A stretch of 38,621 nucleotides of DNA from a virus: IMG/VR virus record IMGVR_UViG_3300020202_000161, positions 1-38,621 of that record; one strand, given 5' to 3'. A program made the position numbers and the translations under genes. This document shows, piece by piece, positions 3,568 to 37,799 of the stretch (positions are counted from its first letter, which is position 1; each line of letters opens with the position of its first letter). The notes below the pieces were generated by a model, which saw only the letters and a program-made list of their open reading frames with translations, had not been told where the DNA came from and did not search any database.

Positions 3568-3596
3568 TGTATAGCAAACGTATTACATAACGTCAA
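3568..3596 (-). promoter_or_regulatory. Leftward sigma70-type promoter
   Basis: On the minus strand TTGACG (3596-3591) and TATACA (3573-3568) are separated by exactly 17 bases, close to the sigma70 consensus. The first leftward gene starts 27 bases past the -10. The spacer holds ACGTTATGTAATACGT, a partly symmetrical sequence that could be an operator. Confidence 0.8.
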
Positions 3597-3603
3597 GCGC
3601 TGG

Positions 3604-3632
3604 TAGACAACGCGCAATACAGATGCTATACG
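3604..3632 (+). promoter_or_regulatory. Rightward sigma70-type promoter
   Basis: TAGACA (3604-3609) and TATACG (3627-3632) are spaced by 17 bases. It reads into the ribbon-helix-helix gene at 3684. It is back-to-back with the leftward promoter, and both carry GCTATAC at the -10 and a CGTTA element, so one regulator could bind both. Confidence 0.75.
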
Positions 3633-3683
3633 TTAGGAAGATTGACCGCTTGGCGAACGCGGGATACGCAGGGAGAAAACGAA

Positions 3684-3998
3684 ATGACTGGGCTTTCAGT
3701 GACTCTGTTCCCGCCGAAGGAAAAGAAGCGACGTTCGGGTGCCACAAAGATGATGGCGTTTCGGTGCCCAGATGACTTGCGGGAATACGTCGAGGAGATG
3801 TCCGGTCGCGGGTACGACAAAACAGAAACGATCGTGAAGCTGATGCGTCTCGCGCGGGCTGTCGAAAAGGAATTGGCTGACGGACTTCAACGCGCCGAGG
3901 AGATAGCTCGAGGCGAAAATGTTGAACTCGGTCGCGTCGTCGGGCGCCTCGCAGATCTTGGACTCAAGCAATACGACCGCGAGAAGAGGAAGAGGTAG
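3684..3998 (+). CDS. Ribbon-helix-helix-like regulator, 104 aa
   Basis: After a short N-terminal arm (MTGLSVTLFPPKEKKRR) comes KMMAFRCPDDLREYVEEM, then Y-D-K-T-E-T-I-V-K-L-M-R. This looks like the beta strand plus two helices of MetJ/Arc DNA-binding proteins. The rest is a charged helix that could form a dimer or tetramer. ATG 3684 is preferred over an upstream TTG because AGGGAG lies about 10 bases before it. It sits immediately downstream of the divergent promoters, the usual place for the gene controlling them. No CI/Cro-type repressor was found, so it is the main candidate for the early switch; DNA binding is inferred. Confidence 0.7.
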   Translation: MTGLSVTLFPPKEKKRRSGATKMMAFRCPDDLREYVEEMSGRGYDKTETIVKLMRLARAVEKELADGLQRAEEIARGENVELGRVVGRLADLGLKQYDREKRKR

Positions 3999-4002
3999 GG
4001 CG

Positions 4003-4200
4003 ATGGCTGCGCGTTACAACAGGCACAGGGAAGCTGTGGTGGCGAATTGGCCGCCCATGGCGTTTGTGATCGTTATGTGTGTCTGGGGGGCCGTCTCCGA
4101 AAACGCCATTCCCTGGCAGGCGTGGGCGGTGCTTTCGGTCACTGGCTTTTATGTGATTGGGATTTGGTGCGAGGTAGTGAGCGCTCTCAATAAGGACTAA
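4003..4200 (+). CDS. Small inner-membrane protein, 65 aa
   Basis: Starts MAARYNRHREAVVANW, then two hydrophobic segments: MAFVIVMCVWGAV and AWAVLSVTGFYVIGIWCEVV. Four bases separate it from the regulator. Topology suggests two membrane helices joined by a short loop. Family not recognised. Next to a lipoprotein and between regulator and integrase, it may be expressed from the prophage and act at the cell surface, for example in superinfection exclusion; this is an inference from position. Confidence 0.65.
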   Translation: MAARYNRHREAVVANWPPMAFVIVMCVWGAVSENAIPWQAWAVLSVTGFYVIGIWCEVVSALNKD

Positions 4201-4206
4201 AGAAAC

Positions 4207-4536
4207 ATGCGCTGGCTCTTGATTATGACAATGCTGTCTGCCGGCTGCGTCCGAACGAGAATCACTCACTTCGACGCGCGCACGAAACGCGTAGAGGCGT
4301 GCGGCAATCAATGGGCGAACTGGGACCATCTCCGCGAGCGGGCTGTGGAATTCTGCCAGGCCCGCGTCAACACGCTCAACTGCGGCACCGAACAAATAGG
4401 CTCATTCACCCACGCCCAGGCCCGCACAAGTTCGAGCGGTCGGACAACACAGGGCTTCGCCGTGGAAACGCCGGTCTACGGGTCGTGCTGTCTCTTTCAG
4501 TGCGGCCGACCGAAGGTGGAATCCGAGTCGCTATGA
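4207..4536 (+). CDS. Predicted lipoprotein, 109 aa
   Basis: Signal peptide MRWLLIMTMLSAGC with lipobox L-S-A-G-C15, so it should be lipidated and exported. The mature part has six further cysteines that could form disulphides in the periplasm. No family recognised. Prophage-borne lipoproteins near integrase often block re-infection or change the host surface. Six bases separate it from the membrane-protein gene, so the two are likely co-expressed. Confidence 0.7.
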   Translation: MRWLLIMTMLSAGCVRTRITHFDARTKRVEACGNQWANWDHLRERAVEFCQARVNTLNCGTEQIGSFTHAQARTSSSGRTTQGFAVETPVYGSCCLFQCGRPKVESESL

Positions 4537-4541
4537 GAATC

Positions 4542-4583
4542 AGTGGCTCGATTTCTGGCCATAGTGGCTCGAATTCGAACCAC
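4542..4583. repeat. Helically phased repeats upstream of integrase
   Basis: AGTGGCTCGA occurs at 4542-4551 and again at 4563-4572, exactly 21 bases (two helical turns) apart. An inverted near-copy CGAACCACT follows at 4575-4583. The second copy and the inverted copy form a near-palindrome centred on GAATTC. This 225-base gap before integrase also has GTTG...CAAC near 4660. Integrase arm-type or regulator sites are the likeliest reading. Confidence 0.5.
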
Positions 4584-4761
4584 TCGGTATTTCACGCAAT
4601 GTCATTGCTGGGCGGCTGTGAGTGTCTATGTAGCGCATGTCACGCACAATGACTGAGACTGTTGGAGACTCAACAAACTGGCAAGGGGCTTGCTCCGGGC
4701 CCCGCCGGTGCGTGGCGGACAAAAGAAAAAGAGGGGGAGCCGTAAGCGGAGGGTTCCAAAG

Positions 4762-5826
4762 GTGATTGGCTCCCGGGGTAGACGCATCGTCTCGCGCGCG
4801 TCGGGGTACCTCTCCCGGCTCAAGCTTCCGACGTTCAGGGAGTTTGCAGACTCGTTCATGCGCGAATACGCCGAGGTCTCGATTCGCTCCAAGCCGAGCG
4901 GTCTGCGCGCTAAGGAAAACATCCTGCGCAACCATGTGCTGCCGGTGGTCGGCGACCTCCCGCTCGATAAAATCGACGAGCGCCACGTGTTGGCTCTCAA
5001 ACAGCGGACCCACAATCTCAGTCCCAAGACGGCCAACAACATTCTCACAACGCTGACAGGGGCGCTGCGGTGGGCCGTGCGTCGCGGGTTGCTCCCTGAG
5101 ATGCCGGTCCGCGTCGAACTCTTCCGAGCCCCGGAGCCCGAAATGCAATTCTATGACTTCGAAACATATGCGCGGATCCGCCAGGCGGCGCAGCAACTCG
5201 ACCCGCGTTTCTACGCGATGGTGTTGCTCGGCGGTGACGCTGGGTTGCGACTCTCGGAGATAGTCGCGCTTCGGTGGGTCGACGTGAATTTCCAAACCGG
5301 CACACTCAATGTTCGCGTGTCAGACTGGAAGGGTACGTTGGTTGTACCGAAATCCGGGACTGGGAGGGTGGTGCCGATGACCGAGTTGCTAGCCCTCGCG
5401 CTTCGAGCGCTGCGAAAGAGCCGACACGGTCGAGTCTTGGCGCGCGATGACGGCAACCCGACGAGCATGCAGACGGTCCGCACTTGGATGCGCCACGTCC
5501 AAGAGACGGCCGGCATCGAGGGAGCGAAAGGAAATCTGCACGTGCTCCGTCACACGTTTTGTTCGCATCTTGCGATTCGCGGAGCCGCACCCGTAGCCAT
5601 CCAAAAATTGGCTGGACACACTTCGCACAAGGTGACACAACGCTACTTACACCTCGGAGTAGAGGAACGCCGGGAAGCTATCCGGCTCCTTGATGCTTCG
5701 AGAAAAACAGAGGAGGCGGTTTCGCTTTCCTCTTTTTTAACGTCCCCGGCGGGATTCGAACCCTTCATGGGCGCTAAAAAGAGGAGAAGCAGAACTGAAG
5801 GGCGATCGAAAAAAAGAAAACGATAG
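4762..5826 (+). CDS. int: Tyrosine-family site-specific integrase
   Basis: Catalyses integration and, with a partner, excision of the phage. All catalytic residues are present (numbering from GTG 4762): R163 in AGLRLSE, K197 in PKSGTGR, H260-x-x-R263 in HVLRHTF, H286 in AGHTS and nucleophile Y295 in RYLHL. A SAM-like core-binding domain begins at TFREFADSF. GTG 4762 is chosen for GGAGGG 8 bases upstream; the frame stays open to a TTG at 4690 (378 residues), adding a Lys/Arg-rich N-terminus. Unusually, the last ~28 codons overlap a tRNA-like attachment core (5741-5763), so integration would replace the C-terminus. The end is Lys/Arg-rich over an A7 run, and an HTH frame follows in -1. Confidence 0.93.
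   Translation: MIGSRGRRIVSRASGYLSRLKLPTFREFADSFMREYAEVSIRSKPSGLRAKENILRNHVLPVVGDLPLDKIDERHVLALKQRTHNLSPKTANNILTTLTGALRWAVRRGLLPEMPVRVELFRAPEPEMQFYDFETYARIRQAAQQLDPRFYAMVLLGGDAGLRLSEIVALRWVDVNFQTGTLNVRVSDWKGTLVVPKSGTGRVVPMTELLALALRALRKSRHGRVLARDDGNPTSMQTVRTWMRHVQETAGIEGAKGNLHVLRHTFCSHLAIRGAAPVAIQKLAGHTSHKVTQRYLHLGVEERREAIRLLDASRKTEEAVSLSSFLTSPAGFEPFMGAKKRRSRTEGRSKKRKR
5729..5784. other. attP: Candidate attP: tRNA 3'-end core flanked by an inverted repeat
   Basis: On the minus strand 5763-5741 reads GGGTTCGAATCCC then GCCGGGGACG: T-loop, T-stem 3' half, acceptor 3' strand CGGGGAC and discriminator G of a tRNA, without an encoded CCA. A GUCCCCG acceptor with discriminator G fits tRNA-Glu best, though this is tentative. 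Flanks are inverted repeats: CCTCTTTTTTAACG (5729-5742) and CGCTAAAAAGAGG (5772-5784). The whole lies inside the integrase 3' end. Many tyrosine integrases use such tRNA-end identity segments as the crossover core. Confidence 0.82.
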
Positions 5827-6038
5827 AGCGCGTCGAGACGCTCGACCAGAGACGTAGAGCAAAGGGGAGCGGCAACGGTCGCTCCAAACTCACTGAGCAA
5901 GATGTCATCGAGATACGGCGGCTACTCGCTCGTGGGCACACGACCACTCAGTTGGCCAAGCAGCACGGGGTTGATCGCCGCGTCATCTACCAAATCCGCA
6001 CCGGGCAGACCTGGCAGCACGTCGGGGGCGTCCGATGA
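5805..6038 (+). CDS. HTH protein frame lacking a normal start, -1 to integrase
   Basis: An open frame encodes a charged linker and then a convincing helix-turn-helix domain: SKLTEQDVIEIRRLLARG, T-T-Q-L-A-K-Q-H-G-V, D-R-R-V-I-Y-Q-I, ending QTWQHVGGVR. This type is common as a small phage DNA-binding module. The frame has no ATG, GTG or TTG before the domain; after the upstream stop (5796) only ATC (5805) and ATA occur. It overlaps the integrase end in the -1 frame across a run of seven A (5809-5815). Options are a frameshifted integrase-HTH fusion, a rare ATC start, or a relic. Its stop overlaps the next ATG by 4 bases. Confidence 0.5.
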   Translation: MEKKKTIERVETLDQRRRAKGSGNGRSKLTEQDVIEIRRLLARGHTTTQLAKQHGVDRRVIYQIRTGQTWQHVGGVR

Positions 6039-6373
6039 GTGCCTGCCGAAACTGTGGCGCCCCGGTCATCTGGGCGACCGAGACTCACTCGAAAACGGGA
6101 GTCGTCAAAAACGTCCCTCTCGATGCCGAGGCGACCGGCGGTGACTTCGACCTAGAAGAGGGCGAGGAGAAACCTCGGGCCGTTTGGGTCGGCAAGGGCC
6201 GCGGTCAGTACACGAAGCACTTTCAGACCTGCACCCAGAAAGAGCAGCGCACTGGTCCCGGTATCGACCCTGGCCACCTCACCCAGGGCAAGCAATCCAT
6301 CGGCGAGCGGCTCGACCAAATCGCCGCACTCGTCGCTTCAATCAAGGCAGACATGCGCGGGGGGCAGTCATGA
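6035..6373 (+). CDS. Zinc-ribbon-like hypothetical phage protein, 112 aa
   Basis: Begins MSACRNCGAPVIWATE, the C-x-x-C-G-x-x-I-x-W pattern of a widespread small phage protein. A second half-site may be the C in F-Q-T-C-T. The C-terminus is a helix (GERLDQIAALVASIKAD) suited to dimerisation. The ATG overlaps the HTH frame stop. It is the first of the genes leading to the replication module; no activity can be assigned. Confidence 0.65.
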   Translation: MSACRNCGAPVIWATETHSKTGVVKNVPLDAEATGGDFDLEEGEEKPRAVWVGKGRGQYTKHFQTCTQKEQRTGPGIDPGHLTQGKQSIGERLDQIAALVASIKADMRGGQS

Positions 6374-6681
6374 TCGACTGGGGCCCACTGTTCAAGCTAG
6401 CGCCGTACCAGAAGCACTCCGAGACATCGAAGGCGGCAGCGAAGGTCATCGAGCTTTCTGGGAAGAGGCTCACCAAGCGTCAGCAGGTCTTCGATTGCCT
6501 GATGGCGTTCGGTCCTCAGACTGACGAGGAAATTCAGCGCAACCTGAAGATGCCCGAGAGCAGTCAGCGACCTCGTCGCGTGGAACTCGTCGAGCGCGGA
6601 ATGGTTCGCGACAGCGGAATGAAGCGCCGCACTCTTTCGGGGCTCGAAGCGGTCGTGTGGGAGGCAATTGCTCATGGGTGA
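6370..6681 (+). CDS. Winged-helix-like protein, 103 aa
   Basis: Contains TKRQQVFDCLMAFGPQTDEEI, then L-x-M-P-E-S-S-Q-R-P-R-R-V-E-L-V-E-R-G-M-V, then RRTLSGLEAVVWEA: helix-turn-helix plus wing as in small phage MarR-like modules. Starts at ATG 6370, overlapping the upstream stop (ATGA). Probably binds DNA; target and role (transcription control or replication help) are unknown. Confidence 0.65.
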   Translation: MIDWGPLFKLAPYQKHSETSKAAAKVIELSGKRLTKRQQVFDCLMAFGPQTDEEIQRNLKMPESSQRPRRVELVERGMVRDSGMKRRTLSGLEAVVWEAIAHG

Positions 6682-6916
6682 CTTCGCCGAGAAGTTCGAG
6701 GTCTCTACCGCCCGCGACAACATCCCGCGCCGGCCGTGGTCGACGATTCGTGACTGCCGGATCGGCAATCGCATCCTTTGGACCTCGCTCGAGGGAGAGG
6801 GCCGAGTTCCTGAAGTGGTGCGGCTTCACTCGATCATGGGCGGCTCAACCGTTTGGAGGCGGCTCGGTCCGGCAAAGGGTGACCCGATGTTCGAGTTTGT
6901 CAGGAGGGAAGAGTGA
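6674..6916 (+). CDS. Hypothetical protein, 80 aa
   Basis: Starts MGDFAEKFEVST at ATG 6674, overlapping the preceding stop by 8 bases; a TTG 6 bases earlier is possible. Contains several tryptophans and R-I-G-N-R-I-L-W, suggesting a small folded domain. Not recognised. It is the last gene before a 149-base gap carrying a strong hairpin. Confidence 0.6.
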   Translation: MGDFAEKFEVSTARDNIPRRPWSTIRDCRIGNRILWTSLEGEGRVPEVVRLHSIMGGSTVWRRLGPAKGDPMFEFVRREE

Positions 6917-6946
6917 CGGGAGGTCGTTTTCTTTCATCAAACAACA

Positions 6947-6974
6947 GCGGGCACCGCGCTCAAACGGTGCCCGC
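6947..6974 (+). terminator. 10-bp hairpin between early genes and the replication module
   Basis: GCGGGCACCG (6947-6956) pairs perfectly with CGGTGCCCGC (6965-6974) around an 8-base loop. There is no T-run after it, so it is not a textbook intrinsic terminator. It may be an antitermination, attenuator or operator element before the replication genes. The gap 6917-7065 holds nothing else I can support. Confidence 0.45.
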
Positions 6975-7065
6975 AGCAAACCAGAGGTGATGTGTGCGTT
7001 CTGACCTGGGGACAGATAGCAACGTTATCCAAAATTTCAAGTCATCAAACGCGGAGGGTGCCTGA

Positions 7066-7992
7066 ATGGACTGGTACCGCCGCTACACAGACAGAGACGG
7101 CAATCGGAAGATTTACAAAGCAGGTTTCTTCGGAGCCGCGCTTTACGACGCGCTCTGCGACATCAACGCAAAGGAAGACCTTGGCGGGGAGATAACGCAG
7201 CAGTTCCAGGACCTCGACTGGATTGCTCGGCGGATGATGCTCGACGAGGAGTTTTTGGCCGGAACAATCGGAGATCCAGACGACTCCGCCACCCCCGCCA
7301 GCTTCCTCCGCGTCTACCTGGAACGAATAGCCGACCCATCGTGCGGACTGCTTCGAATCGAGCGGGTTGGCGACGGTGAGGAGGTCTGGGTGATTGTTGG
7401 CTGGGTCGATCGACAGCCGAAGATGCCGGACAAGTCCACGGAAAGAGTAAAGAAACACAGGCAGAGTGTTAACTCGAAACGAAATGAAACAGAACGAAAC
7501 GCGTTTCACGATGTTTCAAGCGTTTCAGTGAAACGCGATGAAACGCATGAAACGCACATAGAGAAGGAGAGAGAGAAAGAGAAAGAGAGTGATAGTAGTC
7601 CGCAAGAAACCGCGGACCCTCATCGCGTTCAACCCGAACAAGCAGACCTGATTCACTTACATGCCCCTAATGGGAAAGAACGAACCAAGTCAGAACGCAA
7701 AGAGAGAAAGAAATCAGAACAAGAAACAATCTACGGCTTAATGCAGTCAGCCCGAGCCGAAGTTCTCGGCCCTGAGGCGCTCCCGGACCAAGTCTGGTCG
7801 ATCAAGCGAATCAACAAAGAACTCCAGCCCCTTCTCCGGGTAAACAGACAACTCTTAGGCGCCGCGTACCACCTGTTCCTAGCGGATGACCGAAAACGCT
7901 CGCTCGATCCGCCCTGCGCAACATGGGCGTTCATCCGCGATTGGTCCGGTTACGTCTCGCGAGCCCAGAAAGAGCAGGCCGTACATGCCTGA
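7066..7992 (+). CDS. Replication initiator-like protein (lambda O-type organisation), 308 aa
   Basis: N-terminal ~120 residues (YRRYTDRDGNRKIYKAGFFG ... VWVIVGWVDRQP) look like a folded DNA-binding domain. Residues ~125-225 are low-complexity and highly charged (EKEREKEKE, KSERKERKKSE). The C-terminal ~90 residues (ETIYGLMQSARAEVLGPEAL ... TWAFIRDW) form a helical domain likely to contact the helicase. This order, the helicase gene directly downstream with an 8-base overlap, and iterons inside the gene match lambda O / DnaD-like initiators. GGAGGG 8 bases before ATG supports the start. Function is inferred from architecture rather than a decisive motif. Confidence 0.72.
   Translation: MDWYRRYTDRDGNRKIYKAGFFGAALYDALCDINAKEDLGGEITQQFQDLDWIARRMMLDEEFLAGTIGDPDDSATPASFLRVYLERIADPSCGLLRIERVGDGEEVWVIVGWVDRQPKMPDKSTERVKKHRQSVNSKRNETERNAFHDVSSVSVKRDETHETHIEKEREKEKESDSSPQETADPHRVQPEQADLIHLHAPNGKERTKSERKERKKSEQETIYGLMQSARAEVLGPEALPDQVWSIKRINKELQPLLRVNRQLLGAAYHLFLADDRKRSLDPPCATWAFIRDWSGYVSRAQKEQAVHA
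7475..7595. other. ori: Candidate replication origin: iterons inside the initiator gene
   Basis: TGAAACGC occurs at 7529-7536, 7539-7546 and 7548-7555; its complement GCGTTTCA at 7501-7508 and 7520-7527. Weaker copies lie at 7475-7482, 7485-7492, 7495-7502 and 7512-7519, at about 10-base spacing. GAAACGCGTTTC (7496-7507) is a perfect palindrome. A pure purine run rich in GA follows (7561-7590), a possible unwinding element. Lambda carries its origin in the same place, within O. Confidence 0.68.
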
Positions 7993-37538: not shown

Positions 37539-37582
37539 TTGTCAACAGGTTGTCCACAGGCATTCTAGAGCCCCCGTCCACA
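37539..37582. promoter_or_regulatory. DnaA-box-like cluster
   Basis: TTGTCAACA (37539-37547), TTGTCCACA (37550-37558) and CCGTCCACA (37574-37582) resemble the DnaA box TTATCCACA with 2, 1 and 3 differences. The first two are 11 bases apart. This is the start of a 301-base stretch without a clear gene (37533-37833). It may be a second origin-like or control site. Confidence 0.4.
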
Positions 37583-37652
37583 GAGGAGAAACGAGTGCCT
37601 CCGCGGGCTTGAGATCCCTCGGGTCGCAGGGGATAATTGTAGATGCAGTGAG

Positions 37653-37799
37653 TTTCTGAGTTCATGAAGTCAGTTGAACTCAGAAAAATGGCGTGGCCGA
37701 GCTGTCACTCGAACCACGCCGAAGACAGAGCCGGTACTAGCGGCCCCGCAATACCCGCCAAAGGTACCGGAAGCACCTCTCGTCAGTCAATCGCTGACG
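37653..37799 (+). ncRNA. Run of four hairpins in a non-coding region
   Basis: TTTCTGAGTTCA (37653-37664) pairs perfectly with TGAACTCAGAAA (37675-37686). GGCGTGG (37690-37696) pairs with CCACGCC (37714-37720), enclosing CGAG/CTCG. CCGGTAC (37731-37737) pairs with GTACCGG (37764-37770). CGTCAG (37781-37786) pairs with CTGACG (37794-37799). None is followed by a T-run, so simple terminators do not explain the series. It could be a small RNA or a structured leader for the 39-residue gene at 37834. Confidence 0.5.

Follow-up and report, generated by a model that had tools for sequence, protein, structure and literature searches.

The window, a stretch of 38,621 bp that comprises a whole IMG/VR record, belongs to a temperate Mx8-like phage and probably holds its integration module; the separation of a rightward promoter from the lytic genes upon integration would then be a geometric consequence of this module rather than an immunity mechanism. 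According to this explanation, the integrase encoded at positions 4690–5826 would recombine the attachment core at 5741–5763 with a tRNA-Glu gene of the host at its 3′ end, and the phage arm would restore the tRNA 3′ end and bring a hairpin terminator just downstream of it. Since the core lies inside int, integration would also exchange the basic C-terminal tail of Int for a short tRNA-encoded one, as documented for Mx8. The promoter at 3604–3632 would most likely drive a lysogeny/int operon, consisting of int and a gene located where Mx8 and Mx9 have imm, from a divergent operator-bearing region, and the lytic operon beyond attP would most likely use either its own promoter(s), unlike the E. 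coli sigma-70 consensus, or phage-directed activation.

The window has a GC content of 59% and a 133-bp repeat at its termini (one mismatch), and thus is best read as a closed genome, that is, a complete, circularly assembled temperate Mx8-like phage. The portal protein shows 47–48% amino acid identity to those of Mx8 and Mx9, the capsid protein 50–51%, and the terminase 48% (Mx9); the head/tail module is homologous to that of Mx8 and Mx9 from the terminase onward, with the same gene order. Judging by these homologous terminase, portal, and capsid genes, the phage belongs to the Mx8-like group (relatives of Myxoctovirus). The rightward genes begin at the control region (about 3.6 kb) and extend to 37.3 kb, and the leftward set runs from position 3577 downwards. 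The earlier note on this DNA placed all replication, structural, and lysis genes beyond the core in the same direction; this holds for the rightward ORFs from about 6035 to 37314, but not for the genes of the Erf-type annealing protein and exonuclease (932–2796), which are leftward and lie on the promoter side. No DNA relatives turned up among phage records, peptide patterns revealed no close relatives of Int, the helicase, or the imm-position protein in IMG/VR, and no Rfam family matched the window.

The plus-strand int gene (4690–5826) encodes a tyrosine integrase (Phage_integrase, 1.5e-27; PHROG integrase, 4e-58), and its ORF reads through both a hairpin and the attP core at 5741–5763. The core falls at approximately codons 351–358, about 30 codons downstream of the catalytic Tyr319, and hence, as claimed earlier, sits inside the int 3′ end, an arrangement that by sequence is that of the Mx8-type module. 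This 23-base core, CGTCCCCGGCGGGATTCGAACCC, is the antisense of the T-arm and the acceptor 3′ strand of a tRNA gene lying on the minus strand, the tRNA being tRNA-Glu in the closest relatives. Of 193 Myxococcota genomes searched, 100 contain the core with at most two mismatches, and none has the exact 23-mer; the reversed pattern, used as a control, gave no matches.

Between the int body and the core lies the hairpin, at 5709–5736, with U-runs on both strands. Its plus-strand stability is modest, approximately −13 kcal/mol (about −12 to −14), and none of 200 shuffles of the 36-nt segment was as stable; the first 12 kb contain 18 terminator-like sites vs. 12.2 expected by chance (sd 3.9), i.e., slightly more than expected. 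The order of tRNA and then hairpin before the int body recurs in all seven relatives that were folded, and in Mx8 the hairpin has the same position. A tRNA-derived core with a putative terminator hairpin on the int side is thus another feature of the Mx8-type module. The hairpin likely serves as the tRNA terminator on the minus strand once the phage is integrated, and possibly as the int terminator on the plus strand. Because the U-run is present on the plus strand too, transcripts could continue to the right only with antitermination or if ribosomes masked the hairpin. Rightward int transcripts could be stopped at 5709–5736, which argues against one long operon; on the other hand, ribosomes translating int may mask the hairpin, as it lies within the translated ORF.

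Relatives of the integrase (E-value threshold 1e-30) are encoded in 83 of 195 Myxococcota genomes, with identity reaching 47% over most of the protein, and in most inspected copies the int 3′ end abuts a tRNA gene on the opposite strand. Direct repeats of 24–30 bp, corresponding to attL and attR, were identified in seven out of nine elements, two of them in tRNA-Glu(TTC), and no direct repeat was seen in G081 and G075. In G100, G104, G136, and G071, repeats of tRNA 3′ ends bound islands whose sizes range from about 7.8 to 9.8 kb; the islands at tRNA-Glu in G122 (10.9 kb), G128 (6.9 kb), and G151 (30.8 kb) also have repeats at both ends. The stretches from G130, G104b, and G195, which possibly cover only a part of the element, yielded no repeat. 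Myxococcota thus harbor islands, about 7 to 31 kb in size, that carry a related integrase at tRNA-Glu, tRNA-Asp, or tRNA-Gly and have direct repeats at their ends. Judging by their gene content, these islands seem satellite- or island-like: when three of them were compared with Mx8, Mx9, and the window, the integrase was the only gene in common. A separate observation is a recurring C-terminal GDxLET motif in the integrases of the relatives. At the DNA level, this motif corresponds to GGAGACATTTTGGAGAC-type repeats, which recur after attL in G100, G104, and G136, and possibly are arm-type sites bound by Int that become visible in the protein sequence.

The relatives also bear on whether the overlap of attP and int has any regulatory meaning. 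It is quite possible, though short of probable, that the overlap is incidental, with int simply reading into tRNA-derived sequence, as in many tRNA-integrating elements. Consistent with this, the overlap varies: int stops ahead of the core in six relatives (G104, G136, G071, G122, G128, G151) and enters it in G100, and in the Mx8-type prophage described below about 20 bp separate the int stop codon from the start of the repeat. However, Mx8, Mx9, and the window phage all carry attP inside int despite dissimilar integrases and different tRNA targets.

The topology of an integrated phage can be seen in an Mx8-type prophage of about 54.5 kb residing in a closed 10.4-Mb Myxococcota chromosome (G159). 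At one end of this prophage, the outermost gene is int, and the lytic operon begins at the opposite end; a 15-bp repeat (TAGAGCATGTAGAAC) is located about 20 bp beyond the int stop codon and again 54.5 kb away, the prophage apparently splitting a host hydrolase-like gene. Together with the attL/attR pairs in seven out of nine elements, this agrees with the earlier claim that integration places the promoter and the lytic genes at opposite ends, which is correct for the relatives and probable for the window phage. As no prophage of the window phage itself was found, its attB site and the exchange of the Int tail are extrapolated.

Comparison with Mx8 and Mx9 defines the module further. In Mx8, attP is situated within int, and integration produces an altered Int C terminus, according to published reports (PMC6070905, PMC4701971, PMC4383910), two of which also describe a new int 3′ end and altered Int activity after integration (PMC6070905, PMC4701971). 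The Mx8 sequence has the layout of int body, minus-strand terminator hairpin, tRNA 3′ end, and further int, the hairpin having −23.2 kcal/mol (none of 200 shuffles as good) and a U-run on the minus strand. The window phage shares with Mx8 the tRNA 3′-end attP, the minus-strand hairpin within int, and related virion genes. It differs in that the alignment of the two Int proteins is short, with about 29% identity, the core is of the tRNA-Asp type in Mx8, 112 residues follow attP there vs. about 20 here, and the window hairpin has U-runs on both strands. Mx9 has the same gene order as the window and, likewise, a tRNA-derived attP inside int, which we read as a part of tRNA-Gly; unlike the window core, it carries the 5′ part of the tRNA. 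As in both these phages, the (candidate) regulator, int, attP, replication, and structural genes of the window are codirectional, with imm heading the rightward operon in Mx8 and Mx9; the part from int and attP to replication and structural genes is codirectional in the G159 prophage as well. This gene order is common to Mx8, Mx9, and the resident Mx8-type prophage, whose attachment sites differ.

The basic 20-residue tail of the window Int, FMGAKKRRSRTEGRSKKRKR, is encoded at 5764–5826, immediately beyond the core. When the sequence is joined in silico to the tRNA-Glu gene of G122, VLPA replaces these last 20 residues, so that the predicted tail of the prophage Int reads TSPAGFEPVLPA in place of TSPAGFEPFMGAKKRRSRTEGRSKKRKR. 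The relevant switch might therefore be the change of Int itself, with the free-phage Int having the basic tail and the prophage Int lacking it, which would alter the activity or direction of recombination; in a variant of this reading, a −1 frameshift at an A7 run would provide Int with an HTH-bearing extension instead of the basic tail. We regard this reading as tentative and somewhat doubtful, and it is compatible with the preferred explanation. Apart from the tail exchange in silico, it agrees with the new 3′ end and altered activity reported for Mx8 Int after integration (PMC6070905, PMC4701971), with an HTH_17 domain following attP in frame in the Mx9 Int, and with an HTH-coding stretch directly after int in the window. 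The latter, at 5799–6038 on the plus strand (HTH_29, 4e-5), is open in the −1 frame relative to int across the A7 run before the int stop codon, and has no standard start codon (ATG, GTG, or TTG) upstream of the HTH, i.e., before 5952. However, it shows 40% identity over 57 amino acids to the C terminus of Mx9 p43, encoded by a separate HNH endonuclease gene next to int in that phage, on its downstream side, and hence is likely a decayed remnant of that gene; this is the simpler reading, and the Int–HTH fusion by frameshift was rejected as the simplest one. Moreover, int of the relatives usually stops before the core, and the tail is not generally conserved.

Returning to the module as a whole, the promoter-like site at 3604–3632 (plus strand; TAGACA-17-TATACG with an extended −10, ATGCTATAC) lies upstream of the imm-position gene and int. 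Two overlapping sigma-70-like promoters on the minus strand, at 3568–3596 and 3582–3610 (TTGACG-17-TATACA and TTGTCT-17-TGTAAT; ranks 2 and 3 by the positional weight matrix), face the Erf/exonuclease side, and a dyad at 3569–3631 with 16-nt arms (3569–3584 and 3616–3631, 81% complementary) covers both −10 boxes and looks like a candidate operator pair. The matrix represents the E. coli sigma-70 consensus, which myxobacterial or phage-specific promoters need not match. By this measure, the assertion that 3604–3632 is the only strong rightward promoter proved wrong: the first-ranking site in the window is 37609–37637 (TTGAGA-17-GATAAT), with 11.7 bits vs. 9.1 bits for 3604–3632, which ranks fifth overall and second if the rightward sites alone are counted. 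As first-order Markov shuffles of the window yield about 6.6 sites of at least 9 bits per strand, the 3604 site is at the chance level by score alone. Within the divergent intergenic region of 106 bp, it is the best plus-strand site (99.6th percentile when compared with windows of this length), and it is credible as a promoter because it lies in a divergent control region with the dyad over both −10 boxes.

Two observations concern the far end of the window. At 37609–37720, the top rightward promoter-like site is followed by an inverted repeat with 11-bp arms (TTCTGAGTTCA...TGAACTCAGAA); a second hairpin, GGCGTGG...CCACGCC, is also present, and the region, which has no Rfam match, possibly represents a small RNA or a control region where the late operon ends. 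DnaA-box-like strings, TTGTCAACAGGTTGTCCACAGG, occur at 37539–37560 in a probably non-coding stretch, a possible origin.

The gene at 3684–3998 (plus strand), which by position corresponds to imm of Mx8 and Mx9, encodes a 104-aa protein, a candidate regulator. Its sequence is unrelated to that of the Mx8 protein. A single-sequence AlphaFold model (pLDDT 76) has a helix at residues 30–41, a turn, and a long helix at 46–103, and a fold search of the PDB ranked a ribbon-helix-helix protein, the ParD2 antitoxin, first, with a non-significant E-value of 6.4; the model is thus weakly ribbon-helix-helix-like. The protein had no significant family match and no significant homologue of known function, and the search for phage homologues gave none. 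The earlier statement that no CI-type repressor was recognised thus does not establish that the phage lacks a repressor: given a small, weakly ribbon-helix-helix-like protein in the imm position, the apparent lack may be a limit of recognition.

Beyond the core, no lytic promoter was identified by the sigma-70 scan, in agreement with the earlier note: 5764–7066 contains no strong match to the E. coli consensus, and its best score of 6.1 bits corresponds to the 20.7th percentile of same-length windows, ordinary for this genome. The corresponding stretch between attP and the replication genes is at the 7.8th percentile in Mx9, the 4.6th in the G159 prophage, and the 69.8th in Mx8, so that strong sigma-70 matches are missing in two out of three relatives. 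These values bear on the alternative proposed in the earlier note, a topological switch, in which 3604–3632 is the main rightward lytic promoter reading through int and attP in the circular genome; integration would cut the operon off from it, lysogeny would be kept by geometry, and induction would require excision. This is unlikely in our view, even though the geometry is confirmed in the relatives and in the Mx8-type prophage and the promoter-poor stretch gives the idea weak support, weak because myxobacterial and phage promoters need not follow the E. coli consensus. The hairpin with a plus-strand U-run stands between the promoter and the lytic genes, the corresponding stretch of Mx8 is not promoter-poor, 3604–3632 is not uniquely strong, and the gene at the corresponding position in Mx8 and Mx9 is called imm, so this promoter would be expected to be on in lysogens. 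In addition, among 30 IMG/VR records that encode an Mx8-like portal, a recombinase family match was found in only three, and the lytic operon of the others would need promoters independent of int; this count is soft, as the Pfam search missed the Int of Mx8 itself, and the integrases of Mx8-like relatives may have diverged, or many of the relatives may be virulent. Taken together, the hairpin in the path, the modest rank of the promoter, and the imm-position gene do not support a lysogeny switch by geometry.

The first replication gene is preceded by a 149-bp gap (6917–7065) with a strong hairpin at 6947–6974 and an AT-rich stretch. Adjoining this hairpin, a near-copy of the leftward promoter motif (3569–3596) is seen on the minus strand at 7015–7042; it is the best secondary match to the motif, but it is not significant, as an equal or better score was obtained in 11 of 100 shuffles. 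The hairpin could end a short leftward RNA.

An exact precedent for a topological switch is Tn916, in which integration physically separates the genes from Porf7 and thereby keeps them silent, whereas circularisation, together with antitermination, allows their expression (PMC11658703). As in Tn916, a promoter at one end of the window phage reads outward to the attachment site, the operon is at the other end, and a putative terminator lies between them near one end; by geometry, integration separates the promoter from the operon in both. Unlike the geometric resemblance seen here, the Tn916 circuit has been proven by experiments and includes the canT antiterminator; moreover, Tn916 belongs to the conjugative elements and not to the phages. 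A phage counterpart of Tn916 would use one rightward promoter for the lysogeny/int operon when integrated and for the whole lytic operon when circular, a scheme to which we assign a low probability. In this scheme, the int-end hairpin would act as a terminator or insulator passed by translation or antitermination, and excision itself would turn the lytic genes on. The other known design, integration-dependent immunity with attP in the repressor gene, cited in the earlier note for mycobacteriophages, is indeed that of the BPs type, where the truncated repressor is the active form (PMC4557955). The window phage resembles BPs in having attP inside a lysogeny gene whose C terminus would be changed by integration, but this gene is int and not that of a repressor. 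Thus, the attachment module belongs to the known Mx8 kind, and a Tn916-like circuit would be a possible further addition to it.

The preferred explanation extends the Mx8-type arrangement with attP inside int to an Mx8-like phage whose integrase and tRNA target are different, and reveals an integrase family common to this phage and Myxococcota islands. To our knowledge, a coupling of transcription to excision of this kind has so far been described only for Tn916-type elements. If the topological reading were true, it would represent a repressor-light coupling of excision to lytic transcription, which could be tested in Mx8 and M. xanthus.
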